A DNA stretch of 64,000 nt, taken from positions 2,914,001 through 2,978,000 of the forward strand of contig NZ_CP119145.1 of NCBI RefSeq assembly GCF_029167625.1, read 5' to 3'. The notes beneath the pieces are model-generated. The model searched no databases. It was not told where the DNA came from and saw only the letters and a program-made list of their open reading frames with translations. A program made the position numbers and the translations under genes. The stretch comes from Streptomyces sp. AM 4-1-1 (lineage in GTDB: Bacteria; Actinomycetota; Actinomycetes; Streptomycetales; Streptomycetaceae). This document shows positions 21,223 through 58,978 of this stretch, one piece after another. Positions within the stretch are counted from its first letter, which is position 1. Every line of letters starts with the position of its first letter.

Positions 21223-21341
21223 GTTCGGCGGCGACCTACTCTCCCACAGGGTCCCCCCTGCAGTACCATCGGCGCTGAAAGGCTTAGCTTCCGGGTTCGG
21301 AATGTAACCGGGCGTTTCCCTAACGCAATGACCACCGAAAC
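21223..21341 (-). rRNA. rrf: 5S ribosomal RNA
   Basis: About 119 nt. The reverse complement starts GTTTCGGTGGTCATTGCG and ends CTACTCTCCC-complement/GCCGCCGAAC, the expected actinobacterial 5S ends. It lies downstream of 23S in the normal order. Confidence 0.96.
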
Positions 21342-21399
21342 ACTATGAAAATGTGAACCAACCGGACAACAACACAGCCGTTCATTATTTCAGAACCAA

Positions 21400-21416
21400 C
21401 ACAGTGGACGCGAGCA
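21400..21416 (-). other. 3' arm of the 23S processing stem
   Basis: 17 bases exactly complementary to 24552-24568 on the other side of 23S rRNA. Together they form the long stem that RNase III-type enzymes cut to release pre-23S. Confidence 0.8.
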
Positions 21417-21420
21417 ACTG

Positions 21421-26369
<4,949 letters not shown>

Positions 26370-26652
26370 ATGTTTTCCCGTAATCGGGACACACATCACG
26401 AGAGCGGAACAACCGGTCGGAATAAGACCGGTCATCCACAGCGTCCTCGCTGTGTCATTGCCTGCCCCCAGCCACAAGGACCGGTGAACAGGACTTTCAA
26501 AGGAACCACCAACCTGCCGAAACAGGCCGGGGTATCAACATATCTGGCGTTGACTTTTGGCACGCTGTTGAGTTCTCAAGGAACGGACGCTTCCTTCGTA
26601 CTCACCCTCTCAGGCTTTCCTCCGGGCGCTTCCTTCCGGTCTTGCGTTTCCG

Positions 26653-32918: not shown

Positions 32919-33245
32919 GCGAACAGGGTACGGGGCGGGGGTGCGCGGCGCGGAGGCCACGGCGGGAAAGTGAGAAGGGCCGTGGAGGCCGGGGGGCTGA
33001 TTCGGGAAGCGGGGGCTGATCCGGGGGGCTGATCCGGAGAGCGGGGGCTGATCCGGGACGCGGGGGCTGATCCGGAGAGCGGGGGCTGATCCGGAGAGCG
33101 GGGGCTGATCCGGAGAGCGGGGGCCACGGACGGTGAGCGGCCGGCGTCGGCGCGGGGGCTCGGTCGGTCCGGGGCCGTGGTCGGTGCGGGGCCGTGGTCG
33201 GTGCGGGGCGGGCCGCCTGACCCGCACGGGACGCCGGGGCCGTGA
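32919..33245. other. Repeat-rich spacer between ppx and the isomerase gene
   Basis: 327 bases without a gene. It contains the 19-bp minisatellite (32997-33123) and the first copy of a 34-bp duplication (33211-33244). Confidence 0.75.
32997..33123. repeat. Minisatellite, ~19-bp unit (CTGATCCGGAGAGCGGGGG)
   Basis: Seven units; the last five are exact 19-mers in period (starts 33029, 33048, 33067, 33086, 33105), with the two first ones shorter or diverged. Confidence 0.9.
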
Positions 33246-35240: not shown

Positions 35241-35692
35241 GGTCCGGCGCGGGGCGCCGGGGCTCGGTTCGGGGTGCGGGGGTTGCGGGGCGTCCGGCCG
35301 GTTGCCTGAGGTCCGGCGCGGGGACGCCCCGGTGCTTGAGGTCGGGGTGCGGGGCCAGTGCGGGGGTGCCGGGGTGCGGGGCGTCCGGCGGGTGCCTGAG
35401 GTCCGGCGCGGGGTGCCCCCGCACTTGAGGTCCGGGCGCGGGGGCCGGTGCGGAGCGCTGGAACGCGGGGGCGTCCGGCAGGGTGCCTGAGGTCCGGCGC
35501 GGGGACGCCCCGATGCTTGAGGTCCGGGTGCGGGGACGCCCCCGTGCCTGAGGTCCCGGTGCGGGGACGCCCCCGTGCCTGAGGTCCCGGTGCGGGGACG
35601 CCCCCGTGCCTGAGGTCCCGGTGCGGGGACGCCCCGATGCTTGAAGTCCGGACTCGGGGACGCCCCCGTGCCTGAGGTCCCGGTGCGGGGAC
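35239..35692. repeat. Large GC-rich minisatellite block, ~31-bp core unit
   Basis: About twelve degenerate units starting CTGAGGTCC and continuing GGTGCGGGGACGCCCCCGTG. Two consecutive units at 35548-35578 and 35579-35609 are identical 31-mers; others vary in length by insertion. It fills nearly the whole 500-base space between the Cys-rich gene and the BACON protein gene (35241-35739). All long frames here on both strands encode repeated, family-less peptide and are rejected as genes. Confidence 0.9.
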
Positions 35693-43978: not shown

Positions 43979-45082
43979 ATGGCGCACGGCGAGGTGCTTG
44001 AGTTCGAGGAGTACGTACGCACGCGGCAGGAGGCTCTGCTGCGCAGCGCACGTCGGCTCGTCCCCGACCCGGTGGACGCGCAGGACCTGCTCCAGACCGC
44101 CCTCGTCCGCACGTTCGGCCGCTGGGACGGCATCGAGGACAAGTCCCTCGCCGACGCCTACCTCCGCCGCGTCATGATCAACACCCGTACGGAGTGGTGG
44201 CGCGCCCGCAAGCTCGAAGAGGTGCCCACCGAACAGCTGCCGGACGCGAGCGTCGACGACGGCACCGAGCAGCGCGCCGACCGCGCCCTGCTGATGGACG
44301 TCCTCGGAGTGCTGGCTCCCAAGCAGCGCAGTGTCGTCGTGCTGCGACACTGGGAGCAGATGAGCACGGAAGAGACGGCCGCCGCCCTGGGGATGTCGGC
44401 CGGTACGGTCAAGAGCACGCTGCACCGGGCGCTGGCGCGGCTGCGCCAGGAGCTGGAGAGCCGGGAAGCGATGAGCCGCGAGGCGACGGAGCGCGAGTCC
44501 CAGGGCGGCGTGACCGCGCCGGGCCGCAGGGCCGCGGTGGACCGCACGACCGCCGAGCGCACGGCTGCGGCGGACCGCGTGGCGGCCGAGCGCAAGGCCG
44601 CCGAGCGCCGGATCGGTGAACGCCGGGCCGCGGCGGATCGCGCCCTCGCGGACCGCCGGGCCGCAGCGCGCAGGACCGCCGCCGAGCTGGCCGCCGCCAA
44701 TCGTGAGGCCGCCGAACGCCGGGCCGCCGAACGCGCCGTCGCGGACCGCGAAGCCGCCGAGCGGAAGGCCATGGAGCGCGCCGCCGCCGAACGCCGGGCC
44801 GCCGAACGCGCCGTCGCGGACCGCCAGGCCGCCGAGCACCGGGCCGCCGGCCTCAGGGCCGCGAACCGCGTCGCCGTGGGTCACAATGCTGACAGCCGCA
44901 CGCCTGCGGACCGTACGCCCGCGAACCACGCCACTCCGGTTCGCACGGCGGCGCAGCACGCTCCCGCAGCCGTGTCCGCGCCGCCCGTGCCCGCACCCGT
45001 GCTGGCGCGCGTCCCGGCGCAGGCGCAGGCACGGGCGGTCAAGCGGTACGACGAACGGGGGCGGGAGCGGTGCGCGGCCTGA
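43979..45082 (+). CDS. sigE: ECF sigma factor SigE with a long repetitive C-terminal tail
   Basis: Sigma factor of the cell-envelope stress response, part of sigE-cseABC. Residues 1-~163 are the normal sigma protein: region 2 (LEFEEYVRTRQEALLRSARRLV, LLQTALVRTFGRW, YLRRVMINTRTEWWRARK) and region 4 (PKQRSVVVLRHWEQMSTEETAAALGMSAGTVKSTLHRALARLR). Residues ~164-367 are a ~200-residue extension unlike the ~20-kDa SigE of S. coelicolor: Ala/Arg/Glu-rich with 7-residue spacing (AAERRAAERAVADREAAERK), including a 42-bp exact direct repeat 75 bp apart, then a Pro/Ala stretch. It ends YDERGRERCAA. GGAGG lies 8 bases before the ATG. The stop overlaps the cseA start by 13 bases, so the tail has not broken operon coupling. 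Confidence 0.92.
   Translation: MAHGEVLEFEEYVRTRQEALLRSARRLVPDPVDAQDLLQTALVRTFGRWDGIEDKSLADAYLRRVMINTRTEWWRARKLEEVPTEQLPDASVDDGTEQRADRALLMDVLGVLAPKQRSVVVLRHWEQMSTEETAAALGMSAGTVKSTLHRALARLRQELESREAMSREATERESQGGVTAPGRRAAVDRTTAERTAAADRVAAERKAAERRIGERRAAADRALADRRAAARRTAAELAAANREAAERRAAERAVADREAAERKAMERAAAERRAAERAVADRQAAEHRAAGLRAANRVAVGHNADSRTPADRTPANHATPVRTAAQHAPAAVSAPPVPAPVLARVPAQAQARAVKRYDERGRERCAA
44708..44824 (+). repeat. 42-bp direct repeat inside the sigE tail
   Basis: 44708-44749 and 44783-44824 are identical (start GCCGCCGAACGCCGG), 75 bases apart (25 codons), in frame. This indicates tail growth by in-frame duplication. Confidence 0.9.
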
Positions 45083-48792: not shown

Positions 48793-50388
48793 CTACACGG
48801 TCTCCGACGCCAGGCTCGCGGCCGCGGGCTCCGGACCGTCGCTCTTCTTGGCCTCGGGCCCCGCCCCCCGCAGCGGCACCTCCTTGACGAACAGCGCCGC
48901 GACCAGGGCGATCACCGCGACGGACGCGCCCAGCACGAACGCCGCGTGCGTCCCGGACGCCACCGCGTACTGGTACGCCTCGCGCGCCGCCTGCGGCAGC
49001 TTCGCCAGGTGCGCCGCGTCCAGCTGTGCGGACTTCTGCACGACCCCGCCACCACCGCGCGCCACCATCTCGTCCTGCACCCGGCCGGTGAACAGGGCGC
49101 CCATGATGGCGACACCGAACGAGCTGCCGAGCGTACGGAAGAGGGTGGCCGTCGACGAGGCGACGCCCATGTCCTTCAGCTCGACGCTGTTCTGCGCGAC
49201 GAGCATGGTGATCTGCATCAGGAAGCCCATGCCCGCACCGAGCACCGCCATGTAGAGGCCGGAGGTCAGCCGGGTGGTGCCGGTGTCCATCTGCGCGAGC
49301 AGGAAGAGGCCGACGACCATCAGCGCGCCGCCCGCGATGGGGAAGATCTTGTACCGGCCGCTGCTGGTGGTGATCCGGCCCGCGACCAGGGAGACGACCA
49401 TCATCGACAGGAGCAGCGGCAGGAGCAGCAGCCCCGAGTTGGTCGCGGACGCGCCCTGGACCGACTGCTGGAACAGGGGCAGGAACAGCACCGCGCCGAA
49501 CATCGCGAACCCGGTGATGAAGCCGATCACGGACATCAGGGTGAAGTTCAGGTTGCGGAAGATGTGCAGCGGCATGATCGGTTCGGCGGCGCGCGTCTCT
49601 ACGAGGACGAAGCCGACCAGGGCGGCGACACCGAGGGCGATCAGCTCCATGATCACGGCGGAGTCCCAGGCGTACTCCGAACCGCCCCAGGTGGTGACGA
49701 GGACGATCGAGGTGATGCCGACGGTGAGCAGACCGGCGCCCAGGTAGTCGACCCGGGACTTCGGCCGTTCCTTCTTCGGGAGGTGCAGCACCGCGGTGAC
49801 CATGGCGAGGGCGACCGCGCCGAGCGGCAGGTTGATGTAGAAGCTCCAGCGCCAGCCCAGGTGGTCGGTTATCGTGCCGCCGACCAGCGGTCCGCCGATC
49901 ATCGCCACGGCCATGACACCGGCCATGAGGCCCTGGTACTTGCCGCGCTCGCGGGGCGGCACCAGGTCACCGATGATCGCCATGACGCCGACCATGAGCC
50001 CACCCGCGCCGAGGCCCTGGATCGCCCGGAAGCCGATCAGCTGTCCCATGTCCTGGGCCATTCCGCTGAGCACGGAGCCGATCAGGAACACCACGATGGA
50101 CGTGAGGAAGATGCCCTTGCGCCCGTACATGTCGCCGAGCTTGCCCCAGATGGGGGTGGAGGCGGCGGTGGCCAGGGTGTACGCGGTCACCACCCAGGAG
50201 AGGTGTTCCAGGCCCCCGAGGTCGCCCACGATCGTCGGCATCGCGGTGCCGACGATCAGGTTGTCGAGCATGGCCAGCAGCATCGCGATCATCAGGGCGA
50301 CGATCACCACCCTGACGCTGCGCTGCCGCGGCTCCGCCGCCGGTTGCCCACCGGCCTTCCCGCCCGCTGTCTTCTTCAGATCCGACAT
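48793..50388 (-). CDS. EmrB/QacA-type drug-efflux MFS transporter (DHA2, ~14 TM)
   Basis: 531 residues. Landmarks are the first helix VRVVIVALMIAMLLAMLDNLIVGTAMPTIV (DHA2 motif DxTIVNVALP-like), the loop GKLGDMYGRKGIF and RERGKYQGLMAGVMAV, and a C-terminal half with VAQNSVELKDMGVASSTATLFRTLGSSFGVAIMGA, typical of 14-TM drug exporters. The start is the ATG at 50388 (MSDLKK); a GTG nine bases upstream is in frame. Divergent from the TetR gene and sharing a palindromic operator, so probably repressed by it. Substrate: a hydrophobic drug or own metabolite, unknown. Confidence 0.9.
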   Translation of the reverse strand: MSDLKKTAGGKAGGQPAAEPRQRSVRVVIVALMIAMLLAMLDNLIVGTAMPTIVGDLGGLEHLSWVVTAYTLATAASTPIWGKLGDMYGRKGIFLTSIVVFLIGSVLSGMAQDMGQLIGFRAIQGLGAGGLMVGVMAIIGDLVPPRERGKYQGLMAGVMAVAMIGGPLVGGTITDHLGWRWSFYINLPLGAVALAMVTAVLHLPKKERPKSRVDYLGAGLLTVGITSIVLVTTWGGSEYAWDSAVIMELIALGVAALVGFVLVETRAAEPIMPLHIFRNLNFTLMSVIGFITGFAMFGAVLFLPLFQQSVQGASATNSGLLLLPLLLSMMVVSLVAGRITTSSGRYKIFPIAGGALMVVGLFLLAQMDTGTTRLTSGLYMAVLGAGMGFLMQITMLVAQNSVELKDMGVASSTATLFRTLGSSFGVAIMGALFTGRVQDEMVARGGGGVVQKSAQLDAAHLAKLPQAAREAYQYAVASGTHAAFVLGASVAVIALVAALFVKEVPLRGAGPEAKKSDGPEPAAASLASETV

Positions 50389-50442
50389 GGTCCCCACTCC
50401 CCTGATCCCCTGAAATCCTTGCTCACCGGGCCCCTTACCTGC

Positions 50443-51960: not shown

Positions 51961-52230
51961 TTTAACCGCAGTTGAAACCGGGCCGGTCCGGACATGGCCC
52001 CGCGATCCGGGCATGCCCGCCGGACAGGACGAAGGTCCCGCCCGGTCCAGGGTCCGGAGTCCCGGCCGCGCTCGCGGTCCGGACTCCTACCTCGCGTAGT
52101 AGGCCCTGAACGGCCTGTGCGCCTTGTCACCGCCGGTGGGTCCGAAGACTGCCGGTTCCGGGACCTGTGGCCCTGCGGTGCCGAAGGGCTGTCCCGTCAT
52201 CCCAGGTGGAGGGGCGCGCGGCACCGGACG
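51961..52230. other. Intergenic spacer before the trypco2 locus
   Basis: No gene supported. With the M23 leader (51768-51960) and the dispersed repeat (52231-52347) it makes up the 618-base gap. Confidence 0.6.
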
Positions 52231-52385: not shown

Positions 52386-52748
52386 ATGACCAATGACGAC
52401 GACGGCGTCCACGCGGCCGACGGCATCGAACTCGCCGACGCGGTCGAATCCGTGCGCAACCAGCTCATCGAGGCCGCCGCCCGCGCCACCGGGCACCCGG
52501 TGGCGTTCGAGGTCGGCGACATCCAGATGGAGTTCACCCTCGAACTCCGCCGGGAGGTCAAGGGCGGCGGCAAGGTCAAGGCATGGGTGGTGGAGGCGGG
52601 CGCCGACGTGGCCCGCGCCACCGGGCGGACCCACAAGGTCGCCTTCACCCTGAAGCCGCACAACGCCACGACCGGCGGCCCCTGGCTCATCGGCCACGAG
52701 GACCGGGGCAGCACGGAACACTTCGGCCACGGGCCGGACCACCCGTGA
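52386..52748 (+). CDS. Trypco2-domain protein (trypsin-co-occurring domain 2)
   Basis: 120 residues, almost all one domain: IELADAVESVRNQLIEAAARATGHPVAFEVGDIQMEFTLELRREV, then KVKAWVVEAGADVARATGRTHKVAFTLKPHN. This fits the trypco2 family, described by the Aravind group as a partner of trypsin-like proteases in NTP-dependent conflict systems. The start follows a GGGGGAG site. Its stop overlaps the start of the trypsin-NACHT gene (GTGA), so the two form a coupled pair and presumably the products interact; the domain may be an adaptor or substrate of the protease. Confidence 0.88.
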   Translation: MTNDDDGVHAADGIELADAVESVRNQLIEAAARATGHPVAFEVGDIQMEFTLELRREVKGGGKVKAWVVEAGADVARATGRTHKVAFTLKPHNATTGGPWLIGHEDRGSTEHFGHGPDHP

Positions 52749-55700
52749 GCGCGTCCGCGCCGGGCGGCCCCAGGGCGGACGATCCGGGCGCACACCCCAC
52801 GGACGGCACGGCCCCCGGCCCCCGCGCACGCCCCACGGACCGCACGGCCCCCGGCCCCCGCGCACACCCCACGGACCGCACGGCGGCCGGTCCCGGCACG
52901 CACCCCACGGACCGCGCAGTTCCCGAACCCGGCGCACGCCCCACGGCCCGTACCGCCCCCGGCCCAGGTGCACGCCCCACGGCCCGTACCGCCCCCGGCC
53001 CAGGTGCACGCCCCACGGACCGCACGACCTCCACCCCGGACGCACACCCCACGGACCACACCGCCCCCAGCCCCCGCGCACGCCCCACGGCCCGCATAGC
53101 GGCCCGGCCCGGCACGCGCCCCACGGACCGCACGGTCGTCGTCTCCGGTCTGCTCCAGGGCAGCGGTGTCCTCCTCACCGACCGGCTGGTGCTGACCTGC
53201 GCCCACGTCGTCAGGACGAGCGCCGCCGCCCTGATCGCACAGCCCTCCCGTGGGGGCGTCGTCCGTGGAACGGTGGCCTGGATCGACCACGATCTCGACG
53301 CGGCCCTGCTGTTCCTCGCCACCCCGGCCGCGCCGGTCCCGCCGGTACGGCTCGGGGCACTCGCCGACGGGCAGGTCCTCCCCGGCTGCGAGCTGACCGG
53401 CTTCCCCGACATCCAGCGCTACGGCTCCGACCGGCGGCTGGAGGCGGACCAGTACACCGCCACCGTCCTCCCGGCGGCGGGCCTGACCCGTGGGCTGCTG
53501 GTCTGCCAGCTGGACGGCCCGCCGCCCTTCGACGCCGCCGGCGCCAGGGTCCCGGCCCTGAGCGGACTGTCCGGCGGCCCGCTCTTCGCGGGTGACGTAC
53601 TGCTCGGCATCGCCCGGCAGGTCCCCCGGCAGCGCGGTGGCCGGCGGGTGGAGTGCGTACCGCTGCACGCGCTGCTCCGGTCCCGCACCTTCCGGACGGT
53701 CTGCGAACAGTCCGGCGCCAGGCCCCGCCTGGAGAAGGTCCACGGCCACCATCCCCAGGACCGGCGGTACGAGGAGGACTACGCCGCCTCGCTCGGCACC
53801 GCGTACCGCCGCACGAAGATCTTCGGCCTCGACGAACTCGCCAAGCACGATTCGGAGTGGGACCTCGACACCGCGTATCTGAGCCTGGAGGCCCAGCACC
53901 GCGGCGCCGCCCCGGGCCTGACACCGGAGGCGGCCCCGGCCCCCCAGCGGGTGGACGCCCTGCTCGCCGACCGGCCCCGGGTCCTGCTCCGGGGCGACGC
54001 GGGCGCCGGGAAGACCACCCTGGTGTGGTGGCTCGCCGCCCACGCGTCGGCGGGCACCCTCGGCCCCCGGCTGGCCGCGCTGAACGGGCTGGTCCCCTTC
54101 GTCGTACCGCTGCGCACCCTGCGCGCCCGGGGGGAGGCGTTCCCCACCCCGGCGCGGCTGCCGTCGGCGGCCCGGCTGGTGATCGACGACGCCCCGGACG
54201 GCTGGGCCGGCCGGGTCCTCGAATCCGGCCGGGGCCTGCTGCTCGTCGACGGCCTGGACGAGGTCCCGCCGGACGACCGCGAGGAGGCGCACGACTGGCT
54301 GTCACGGCTGCTGGAGCGCTACCCGGAGACCCGCTGCGTGGCGACCGTGCGCCCGCTCGCCGTGGAACCGGACTGGCTGCTGTCCCAGGGGTTCGAGGAG
54401 CTGCGGCTGCTGCCGATGCGCGACGACGACGTCCGGGCCTTCGTCGCCGCCTGGCACCGGGCCGCCCGGCTGGACGGCGACGCCCACGAGGACCTGGCCG
54501 AACTGGAACGCGACCTCGCCCAGCAGCTCGCCCGGAACACCACCCTGAGCGACCTCGCCCGCACTCCCCTGCTCTGCGCGGTCATCTGCGCCCTGCACCG
54601 CCGACGCCAGGGCTTCCTCCCGGAGACCCGCTGGCAGCTGTACGACTCGGCGCTGGCGATGCTGCTCGGCAACCGCGACAGACGCCGCCGGATCAAGAAT
54701 CCCGAGGGCGTCAGCGTGACCGTGGAGGAGCAGGCCCAGCTGCTCCAGCGGATCGCGGTCTGGCTGGTGCGGGAGGGCCAGACGGAGTTCTCACGCGACC
54801 AGGCTCTGCGCCGGATCGACCGGGCCCTGTCGGGGATGGAGCGGATACAGCAGCAGGGGCCGCCCGAGAAGATACTGACCCACCTGCTGAACCGGAGCGG
54901 GCTGCTCCTGGAACGGGCCGACGACACCTACCAGTTCGCCCACCGCACCTTCCAGGACTTCCTGGCGGCCAAGGAGTTCGTCGAGGACGACCACCTGGGC
55001 GAGCTGCTGCGGCACGCGGCGGAGGAGACCTGGCAGGACGTGATCCTGCTCGCGGCGGGCCACTGCGGTCGGCGTGAACTCCCGCTGCTTGTCAACGGGT
55101 TGCTGGACGTGGGCGAGGAGCGGACCGACGCGCCGGATCGCGCCGGAATCCACGTCCTGGCCGCGCTCTGCGCACGGCACGCGGCCTGGCTGGACGCGGC
55201 GACCCGGGAGCGCGTCAAGCGGTGCACGGCGGCGCTGTTTCCTCCGACCGCATTCCACGAGGTGCGGACGCTGGCCCGCCTCGGCGCGTCCGGACTGGCA
55301 CTGCTGCCGTCACCGGAGGAGTTCGAGGGAACCGCCGGCTCTGTCCACGCCGTCGCGGAACTGATCATCGCGGTCGGCGGTCATGAGGCCGTCCCCCATG
55401 CCCGGACCTGGGCACTCGCACATGAGCGTGCCGTCGAGGTCTTCGCACACCAGTGGTTCAATTTTCCGCCTCAGGCATTCGCCACGGAGGTCCTGGGCCT
55501 CGTCGACCTCGAAGAGCGCATGGTGGATGTGCACACGGCCGATCAGCTCGCCTCGCTGATCCGTCTGCCGAGGGCGAAGCACATCACCGTCTTCGGCGAC
55601 TTCACCGATGACGCCTTGGACACTTCGCTGTCGGCCCTGCGGCTGTATTCACTGGTAGTGGCACGCAACGCGGAGCTCACGAATATCACCTGGCTCCGCC

Positions 55701-56362
55701 GCCAGGGTGAGACGCTCACCGCTCTGCACCTCCTGGACTGTCCCCGGGTCCAGGACGCCTCCGTACTCGTCTCTCTCACGCAGCTCGTCACCCTGGGCCT
55801 CTCGACCAGGAACCTCGGCTGTCCCCGGGACTCCGCGTGCGCGTCGATCGCGGCGCTGGACAGCCTGCGGCATCTGACGGTGCACTCCGTCGACACCTCG
55901 ACGCTCGCGGAACTGCCTGCCCACCCGGGTCTGACCTCCCTGACAGCGGAGTGGACGGGACCGGCGCTGACCGTGACCGGTCTCGCCCGATGGCCGGCGC
56001 TCACGTGGCTCTGTCTGGCCGGCCGGGGACCGGTCGTCCACCTGGCCGACGCGTTGCGTGAAGCCCCTCACCTCACACACCTCCACGTACGTGGAGGCTC
56101 CCGGCTCGAACTCACCGGGGACCCCGTTCCGTCCGTACTCGATCTGTGCCTCCCCGTACGGACGGACGGCGACCTCATCGCGCTGGCCAAGCGCTTCCCC
56201 TCCCTCACGCATCTGGAGTTGTACGCGGGCCAAGGCGCGGTGTTCCCCCTCGACCTCAGCCCGCTCCGGGCACTGCCGGAACTCCGGATCGAGGTCGAAC
56301 TGAACACCGGCCATCTCTCGGACTTCAGCGGCACCGACGGCCTCGACCTCGCGTTCCGCTGA
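52745..56362 (+). CDS. Trypsin-NACHT-LRR protein, candidate conflict/antiphage effector
   Basis: 1205-residue multidomain protein. Residues 15-134: ten exact-length 12-residue units (PTDRTAPGPG-type). Residues ~135-335: trypsin-like protease with triad His154 (LTCAHVV), Asp185 (HDLDAALL) and Ser276 (GLSGGP). Residues ~400-750: NACHT NTPase with P-loop GDAGAGKTT (Lys423), Walker B LLLVDGLDEV (Asp502), VATVRP and the winged-helix segment YQFAHRTFQDFLAAKEF. About 820-925 is helical; ~925-1205 are leucine-rich-type repeats (LRHLTVHSVDTSTLAELPAHPGL, LTHLHVRGGSRLELTG). This is the classical sensor-switch-effector order: repeats to sense, NACHT to oligomerise, protease to act. The GTG is coupled to trypco2. 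The LRR part uses A/T third positions slightly more often (impression). Confidence 0.9.
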   Translation: MSASAPGGPRADDPGAHPTDGTAPGPRARPTDRTAPGPRAHPTDRTAAGPGTHPTDRAVPEPGARPTARTAPGPGARPTARTAPGPGARPTDRTTSTPDAHPTDHTAPSPRARPTARIAARPGTRPTDRTVVVSGLLQGSGVLLTDRLVLTCAHVVRTSAAALIAQPSRGGVVRGTVAWIDHDLDAALLFLATPAAPVPPVRLGALADGQVLPGCELTGFPDIQRYGSDRRLEADQYTATVLPAAGLTRGLLVCQLDGPPPFDAAGARVPALSGLSGGPLFAGDVLLGIARQVPRQRGGRRVECVPLHALLRSRTFRTVCEQSGARPRLEKVHGHHPQDRRYEEDYAASLGTAYRRTKIFGLDELAKHDSEWDLDTAYLSLEAQHRGAAPGLTPEAAPAPQRVDALLADRPRVLLRGDAGAGKTTLVWWLAAHASAGTLGPRLAALNGLVPFVVPLRTLRARGEAFPTPARLPSAARLVIDDAPDGWAGRVLESGRGLLLVDGLDEVPPDDREEAHDWLSRLLERYPETRCVATVRPLAVEPDWLLSQGFEELRLLPMRDDDVRAFVAAWHRAARLDGDAHEDLAELERDLAQQLARNTTLSDLARTPLLCAVICALHRRRQGFLPETRWQLYDSALAMLLGNRDRRRRIKNPEGVSVTVEEQAQLLQRIAVWLVREGQTEFSRDQALRRIDRALSGMERIQQQGPPEKILTHLLNRSGLLLERADDTYQFAHRTFQDFLAAKEFVEDDHLGELLRHAAEETWQDVILLAAGHCGRRELPLLVNGLLDVGEERTDAPDRAGIHVLAALCARHAAWLDAATRERVKRCTAALFPPTAFHEVRTLARLGASGLALLPSPEEFEGTAGSVHAVAELIIAVGGHEAVPHARTWALAHERAVEVFAHQWFNFPPQAFATEVLGLVDLEERMVDVHTADQLASLIRLPRAKHITVFGDFTDDALDTSLSALRLYSLVVARNAELTNITWLRRQGETLTALHLLDCPRVQDASVLVSLTQLVTLGLSTRNLGCPRDSACASIAALDSLRHLTVHSVDTSTLAELPAHPGLTSLTAEWTGPALTVTGLARWPALTWLCLAGRGPVVHLADALREAPHLTHLHVRGGSRLELTGDPVPSVLDLCLPVRTDGDLIALAKRFPSLTHLELYAGQGAVFPLDLSPLRALPELRIEVELNTGHLSDFSGTDGLDLAFR
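52787..53146 (+). repeat. Ten 36-bp tandem units at the start of the trypsin-NACHT gene
   Basis: Ten contiguous units, all exactly 36 bp, with invariant CCCCACGG in each; units 5 and 6 differ by one base in the first 36. They encode the 12-residue PT(D/A)RTAPGPGAR-like repeat without breaking frame. Confidence 0.95.
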
Positions 56363-56377: not shown

Positions 56378-56422
56378 AAGGGGCTGCCCCGGAACCGGGA
56401 ATCCGGTCCGGGGCAGCCCCTT
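56378..56422. terminator. Bidirectional terminator between the NACHT gene and clpC
   Basis: 15-bp perfect stem (arm AAGGGGCTGCCCCGG) around a 15-base loop with an inner stem; A-run before and T-run after on both strands. Confidence 0.88.

Positions 56423-56449: not shown

Positions 56450-58978
<2,529 letters not shown>

Follow-up and report, generated by a model that had tools for sequence, protein, structure and literature searches.

The locus described here raises the question of what a two-gene unit that couples a protease and an NTPase to a hypervariable C-terminal domain does for its host, and of how that domain came to differ so widely between close relatives. The unit lies in a 64,000-nucleotide stretch of Streptomyces sp. 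AM 4-1-1 (contig NZ_CP119145.1, positions 2,914,001 to 2,978,000; this whole stretch is termed the window, and positions are those of the window). The sequence data point to a bacterial nucleotide-binding leucine-rich-repeat (NLR) type immune receptor with a protease effector, in which the leucine-rich repeats (LRRs) would sense a changing foreign ligand, most likely phage; we put the probability of this reading at roughly 0.6. The first gene (52386..52748, + strand, ATG start, TGA stop) encodes 120 residues, of which residues 14-91 were matched by Pfam PF19631, Trypco2 (E 5.1e-26), and overlaps by four bases the second (52745..56362, + strand, GTG start), which encodes 1205 residues. The large protein contains a trypsin-like protease domain (53135..53674, + strand, residues 131-310; Trypsin_2 match at residues 139-282, E 2.4e-9) with His154, Asp185 and Ser276, followed by a NACHT NTPase (53930..54469, + strand, residues 396-575; PF05729 match at residues 413-573, E 1.4e-21) with the Walker A residue Lys423 and the Walker B residues Asp502, Asp505 and Glu506. 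Behind these lie a conserved helical region (54470..55234, + strand, residues 576-830), delimited from AlphaFold2 helices and domain identities, and a hypervariable C-terminal region (55235..56359, + strand, residues 831-1205) with the LRR solenoid at about residues 946-1186. None of the seven named residues varied among the 31 proteins aligned, the broken G082 row being left out (G and L numbers are our handles for genomes and loci). The preliminary description of this locus had named the overlapping gene pair, the intact catalytic and nucleotide-binding residues and a sensor/switch/effector order, and these were upheld by the Pfam matches, the gene coordinates and the alignment: the N-terminal effector, the intact Walker A/B NACHT and the C-terminal LRR of an NLR are all present in the large protein.

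The C terminus had previously been called leucine-rich. No LRR match was obtained from Pfam in the window protein. A profile of five sequences, the window protein and four named homologues (A1), matched solved LRR structures, namely a 'Rab family protein', which we take to be a Roco protein (7.8e-20), internalin A (5e-15 to 6e-14) and entry 7crb 'NAD+ hydrolase', presumably a plant NLR (3.6e-5). The AlphaFold2 model computed on A1 was poor outside the LRRs (mean predicted local distance difference test score, pLDDT, 55.5), with values below 50 across the protease and into the start of NACHT (query residues 1-303) and mostly below 60 for the NACHT part. Over query residues 801-1075, ten-residue pLDDT means were 72-89 except for two (52 and 64), and the LRR region was modelled as 11 successive strands spaced 21-27 residues apart. 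Because of the profile matches and this modelled strand solenoid, the assignment of the C-terminal strand array as an LRR solenoid was deemed confirmed.

The most striking property of this solenoid is its divergence. Median identity to the window protein across 31 other rows was 0.48 for the protease, 0.76 for NACHT, 0.64 for the helical part, 0.37 for residues 831-940 and 0.29 for the LRR. Twenty-six intact LRR-bearing syntenic proteins were compared in 325 pairs, with six rows left out (G082, G167, G240, G060 and the distal copies of G094 and G186); the 34 pairs less than 3.5% apart in the flanking core gene clpC (56450..58978, − strand; Pfam Clp_N, AAA_2, UVR and ClpB_D2-small) were classed as close. 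In all 34 close pairs the LRR was less identical than the NACHT core (median 0.38 vs 0.83), and this held for all 325 pairs (median 0.29 vs 0.67), in support of the sensor-like behaviour proposed earlier for the LRR. In G161/G269, clpC was 0.4% apart, yet the LRRs were 24% identical and the proteases 59%.

The manner of this divergence was deduced from nucleotide profiles, synonymous distances and trees. In G202/G286, G066/G115, G115/G126 and G019/G149, identity in the LRR was 50-66% and returned to 95-100% in clpC; upstream of the LRR it was mostly 85-100%, with dips to 69-79% in G115/G126 and G019/G149, and the Trypco2-protease part of G019/G149 read only 70-90%. The fifth profiled pair, G143/G269, showed the LRR drop together with a large gap upstream. 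For G202/G286, synonymous divergence (dS) was 0.04 in clpC, 0.02 in the M23 peptidase gene on the opposite side, 0.18 in NACHT and 0.78 in the LRR, where nonsynonymous divergence (dN) was 0.69, both LRR values being inflated by alignment at 36% identity; M23 dN values of 1.8-2.4 were disregarded as an artefact of gapped match segments taken as frames. Since selection on amino acids alone would not lift synonymous divergence so far, replacement or hypermutation is needed. The clpC tree grouped G202 with G286 (Shimodaira-Hasegawa-like approximate likelihood ratio test, SH-aLRT, 92) and G066 with G115 (95), in conflict with the LRR tree, which grouped G286, G126 and G056 (99) and G066 with G019 (89). 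In the approximately unbiased test G202+G286 was rejected on the LRR (p 0.0029) and G286+G126 on clpC, with the caveat that G202 has a long branch and the pair was chosen as striking. Among seven close species, LRR distance was unrelated to clpC distance (rho −0.33), and protease distance gave 0.54 (p 0.06). Because synonymous divergence jumps and the trees conflict, the LRRs have very probably been exchanged between relatives and not merely point-selected.

These data were incorporated into the following model. The LRR would bind a changing ligand of foreign origin, most likely one made by phage, and binding would let the NACHT module take ATP and oligomerise; clustering would turn on the N-terminal trypsin-like protease, and the activated protease would cut a cellular or phage target and so halt infection, probably through arrest or death of the cell or hyphal compartment. 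Trypco2 would be a protease-dedicated regulator, either keeping the protease inactive or docking its substrate. LRR exchange would run through homologous recombination anchored in clpC and in the conserved NACHT/helical part; in the window the module and clpC stand tail-to-tail with the clpC stop codon 87 bp past that of the module, and therefore a relative's DNA could donate a new sensor. That the locus encodes an immune-type receptor is judged quite probable, and an antiphage role in particular is predicted with less assurance. An LRR donor pool at the clpC locus is likely. The full proposal, a syntenic polymorphic NLR locus of Streptomyces in which homologous recombination anchored in NACHT and clpC exchanges the LRR cassette between species, is more tentative and was given slightly less than an even chance.

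A number of observations weigh against this model, either in its account of LRR change or in its assignment of function. The protease has also diverged in G019/G149 (67%) and G161/G269 (59%). Among the seven close species the helical part (−0.33) and NACHT (0.21) were likewise unrelated to clpC distance, and across 25 species LRR distance did track clpC distance (rho 0.58, p 0.002). The NACHT tree also departs from the clpC tree, placing G202, G286 and G126 together (91), and exchange may therefore extend beyond the LRR. Searches of 392 genomes recovered only itself for the G202 LRR at 1e-30, and 16 genomes, self included, for the G286 LRR, the others at 31-72% with the closest at 72%; no near-identical LRR in a second host, and hence no direct donor, was caught. 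Pairwise omega gave no evidence of positive selection, as no value in the LRR exceeded 1 (0.41-0.89, nine pairs). Targeted hypermutation, for which no reverse transcriptase search was made, is a possible alternative route for LRR change. The syntenic copies of G240 and G060 lack the LRR. As to function, phage records gave only two Vibrio phage matches, at 20.5% over the NACHT part, and no phage link, and the best PADLOC match was RT-Protease_XI at only 6.3e-4.

The site at which exchange is proposed was characterized across the genus. The large protein was matched at 1e-20 in 204 of 295 genus genomes, and 91 were without any match; among the matches listed, most of those weaker than about 1e-140 start near query residue 200 and are NACHT-LRR proteins without this protease. 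A sample was taken of 46 genomes with a best E of at most 2.5e-156 and 10 without any match, a set enriched for carriers, so that the counts are not frequencies. With clpC located at 1e-250, one copy was found in 55 of 56 genomes and none in G001 (79% complete); partial matches of 91-93% had suggested a second clpC travelling with the module, and this was rejected by the full search. The module lay beside clpC in 34 of the 46 best-matching genomes, elsewhere in 11 (G219 less surely, its clpC contig ending 3.3 kb past clpC) and undetermined in one. The 54 clpC flanks analysed (the adjacency in G177 being taken from L013) held the module in 33 cases, none in 16, NACHT genes only in four and a relic in one; counting broken copies, at least 34 of the 295 genus genomes thus carry it here. 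The last module codon was 62-127 bp from the matched clpC end in 30 of 33 flanks (exceptions G094, G186 and G167). An intact large frame with Trypco2 upstream was present in 28 of 33, with the four-base overlap in 24 of those 28 under the start-codon rule applied; the remaining five comprised split frames in G057, G284 and G082, a split proximal copy in G094, and G167 without Trypco2. Six named Streptomyces loci (L086-L091) likewise adjoin clpC, L090 being broken and L091 a relic.

At this one fixed site the module is present patchily and is subject to decay. The G005 flank retains two Trypco2 parts and one NACHT scrap, the G052 flank protease and NACHT scraps with 71-81% identity to G053, and L091 of Streptomyces sp. 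NBC_01669 most of Trypco2, protease pieces and the LRR end but no NACHT; the remaining flanks classed as empty were scanned for scraps by one search only. Apparent absence is therefore partly decay. Fresh insertion into a core region was rejected because the clpC flank holds these decayed remains, and the earlier statement that the locus interrupts a conserved core region was corrected: the site is a recurrent variable home with repeated decay, as the G005 and G052 remains attest. The preliminary description had held that homologues in all streptomycetes with invariant LRRs would refute its reading, and the opposite, patchy presence with extreme LRR divergence, was found. The unit also occurs off site: copies L022, L026 and L027 have Trypco2 upstream, and a 67.7-kb plasmid of S. 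jietaisiensis carries both genes with one base shared between them. At the site itself, G094 (L036) and G186 (L037) have tandem trypsin-NACHT copies with a single Trypco2, the distal copies being without their own, an arrangement resembling a miniature NLR cluster. NNH1-NACHT-LRR genes occupy the same gap in several species (one identified by Pfam, the others by alignment).

The role of Trypco2 was approached through its neighbours. In the class, Trypco2 was found in 11 of 197 genomes, at 13 places; leaving out the window and G056, a profile placed a trypsin-like protease directly downstream in 8 of the other 11, which bears out the partnership claimed at the outset, and the remaining three had one weak protease match on the opposite strand and two none. 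By Pfam, six of the eight linked proteins carry nSTAND5, NB-ARC or AAA_16/CHAT and five carry TPR or WD40, the nSTAND5 and AAA_16 matches lying below Pfam cut-offs and the NB-ARC match above; one is a protease alone. Because the protease is the constant partner while the NTPase and sensor modules differ, Trypco2 probably serves the protease. Partial correlations of Trypco2 distance (protease 0.20, NACHT 0.32, helical part 0.38, LRR 0.03) failed to separate the protease from NACHT as its partner, and Trypco2 distances did not follow those of the LRR.

This pairing could also be read as a selfish module resembling a toxin-antitoxin system, with the protease as toxin and Trypco2 as antitoxin, maintaining itself on chromosomes and plasmids. 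The two-gene unit on the 67.7-kb plasmid would fit, as would one case, G011 (L080), in which an orphan intact Trypco2 is present at the site, with about 144 bp between the end of its frame and that of clpC, following two protease-less NACHT-LRR genes and with no trypsin-NACHT gene beside it, as expected if the partner was lost and Trypco2 cannot be lost first. However, addiction needs neither a large NACHT-LRR sensor nor its extreme diversification, and some trypsin-NACHT genes stand without a Trypco2 of their own, namely the distal copies in G094 and G186 and the gene of G167, an assembly with 6% contamination. This explanation was considered unlikely.

Kin or non-self recognition, in which a polymorphic NLR reacts to the products of other strains in the manner of fungal het-d/het-e, would be consistent with a sensor that is hypervariable at a fixed locus of a filamentous genus, and fungal NACHT-WD genes do diversify through repeat exchange and selection according to the accessible part of PMC1805685. 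Against this, no ligand or cell-contact component is known, and 91 of 295 genus genomes have no match at all. Fungal-style somatic fusion is, to our knowledge, not an established Streptomyces trait, and kin recognition was rated as quite improbable.

The constraint that persists within the LRR bears on a further explanation, that of a housekeeping or developmental protease whose C terminus is relaxed and unimportant. Of the 83 LRR columns conserved among the seven close species, 38 were leucine, and the x positions of LxxLxLxx were more variable than the hydrophobic ones (1.91 vs 0.77 bits), a comparison biased by choosing the motif on the consensus. The fold and core thus look constrained and the exposed positions variable. 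The LRR omega, high yet below 1, and the LRR-less G240 and G060 would agree with relaxation, but the module is patchy and decaying, scaffold positions are retained as surface positions vary, and the synonymous jump indicates exchange; a housekeeping role was held to be a shade less probable again. Least probable of all was a guard of ClpC or of proteostasis monitoring the neighbouring AAA+ unfoldase, for which conserved adjacency and the proposed guarding by bNACHT25, which requires the chaperone DnaJ (available text of PMC12169576), could be cited, since the module lies elsewhere in 11 of 46 homologue-bearing genomes and a near-invariant clpC beside a hypervariable LRR is the opposite of what a fixed guarded partner predicts.

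The remaining features concern the surroundings of the module. A 12-residue proline-rich linker encoded by a tandem repeat (52787..53135, + strand; Tandem Repeats Finder, 36 bp x 9.7), which was absent from the preliminary description, sits between Trypco2 and the protease domain of the large protein in the window; the protease motif lies within the first 40 residues in the other 27 aligned Trypco2-linked proteins, and the repeat was not seen there. Its copy number could differ among strains. The module is preceded by a divergent M23 peptidase gene, beyond which TetR and MFS genes lie in the window (Pfam; MFS at 48793-50397), and Trypco2 and trypsin-NACHT-LRR are followed by the convergent clpC. 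Between the convergent stop codons an inverted repeat was read from the sequence (56380..56421, unstranded), and inverse-strand matches occurred at the corresponding place in the compared flanks; it is likely a shared terminator of the module and clpC. On the upstream side, 46 of 54 flanks contained the element GGCCTGTGCGCCTTGTCACC (52112-52131) when up to 4 mismatches were allowed; the window holds it once, shuffled sequences gave no match, and Rfam gave none either. It was rejected as a regulatory element of the module because 13 of 16 flanks classed as module-less also have it, and it thus belongs to the site. Further NACHT matches occur in the window's own genome, G000 (C1:11784-12839, C1:7156007-7157254 and C2:283704-284951; L161-L163), near both chromosome ends and on a second replicon, and two LRR matches with identical scores at both chromosome ends suggest terminal inverted repeats. 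The window also holds a complete rRNA operon (16S, 23S, 5S) at 21223-26370 on the minus strand (Rfam) and other strong tandem-repeat arrays at 35285-35692, 44678-44869 and 32992-33209.

If the full proposal of LRR replacement is correct, allele pools of the plant R-gene or major histocompatibility complex-like kind would have a bacterial counterpart in this locus, providing a standing repertoire of receptor specificities with no need for a mutator such as a retroelement (no retroelement search was made). It bears on whether bacteria maintain recombining receptor allele pools as plants and animals do, and would offer a natural series of bacterial NLRs from close species, in which a single locus joins similar effectors and switches to widely differing sensors. 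LRR swaps among such alleles could reveal what bacterial LRR receptors recognise, and Trypco2 gains a testable role as a protease-dedicated partner.

With respect to known systems, an assignment to Avs/AVAST was not supported: the only Avs profile match was Avs1b at E 0.034, within the protease (residues 138-205). Lamassu pairs an LmuA-type effector with the SMC protein LmuB; PADLOC LmuA gave a weak match to the G286 homologue in its protease (E 4.2e-6) and did not match the window protein, the SMC partner not being looked for. Bacterial NLRs of the bNACHT type, reportedly the subject of Kibby et al. 2023, have the same effector-NACHT-sensor order. Proteins with NACHT and LRR are bona fide bacterial NLRs, and bNACHT25 is proposed to guard via DnaJ, according to the available text of PMC12169576, in which bNACHT25 and bNACHT32 have a DNase effector; the present locus differs in its trypsin effector, separate Trypco2 partner, clpC-side position and LRR exchange. 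Neither a clpC-side locus nor LRR exchange in bacterial NLRs was found reported among the open-licence papers listed. The accessible portion of PMC8195603 mentions LRRs that evolve rapidly in AP-GTPase proteins of bacteria, as well as STAND systems whose effector is a trypsin, and that of PMC10907252 covers retroelement-diversified sensors and calls Trypco2 an adapter.

As far as the consulted part of Kaur 2020 (PMC7159879) goes, Trypco1 and Trypco2 were named beside trypsin in VMAP ternary systems, and NACHT clades were described as sporadic. A Trypco2 gene adjoins a trypsin-like protease both in those vWA-MoxR-VMAP systems and here, where NACHT-LRR takes the place of VMAP; no MoxR, vWA or VMAP was found in 10 neighbouring window open reading frames, six of which have no Pfam match and are perhaps spurious. 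The trypsin proteins with nSTAND5-like, NB-ARC or CHAT-AAA and TPR/WD40 (L150-L160) likewise have Trypco2 upstream and an N-terminal trypsin, but differ in NTPase family (most matches below Pfam cut-offs) and sensor repeats. The clpC-side site is also occupied by NNH1-NACHT-LRR genes (L080 and others), which share NACHT and a hypervariable LRR with the module and in which, in the one protein scanned, a helical NNH1 N terminus replaces the protease. Their two closest pairs gave identities of 0.84-0.89 in NACHT and 0.40-0.46 in the LRR, and LRR hypervariability may be general for Streptomyces NACHT-LRR genes; NNH1-type genes sharing it were noted at L077/L080, L058/L078 and L072. Rapid sensor diversification is also common to the Podospora het-d/het-e NACHT-WD genes, for which the accessible part of PMC1805685 describes WD repeats and repeat shuffling in a fungus, whereas here entire LRR ends differ between bacterial species.

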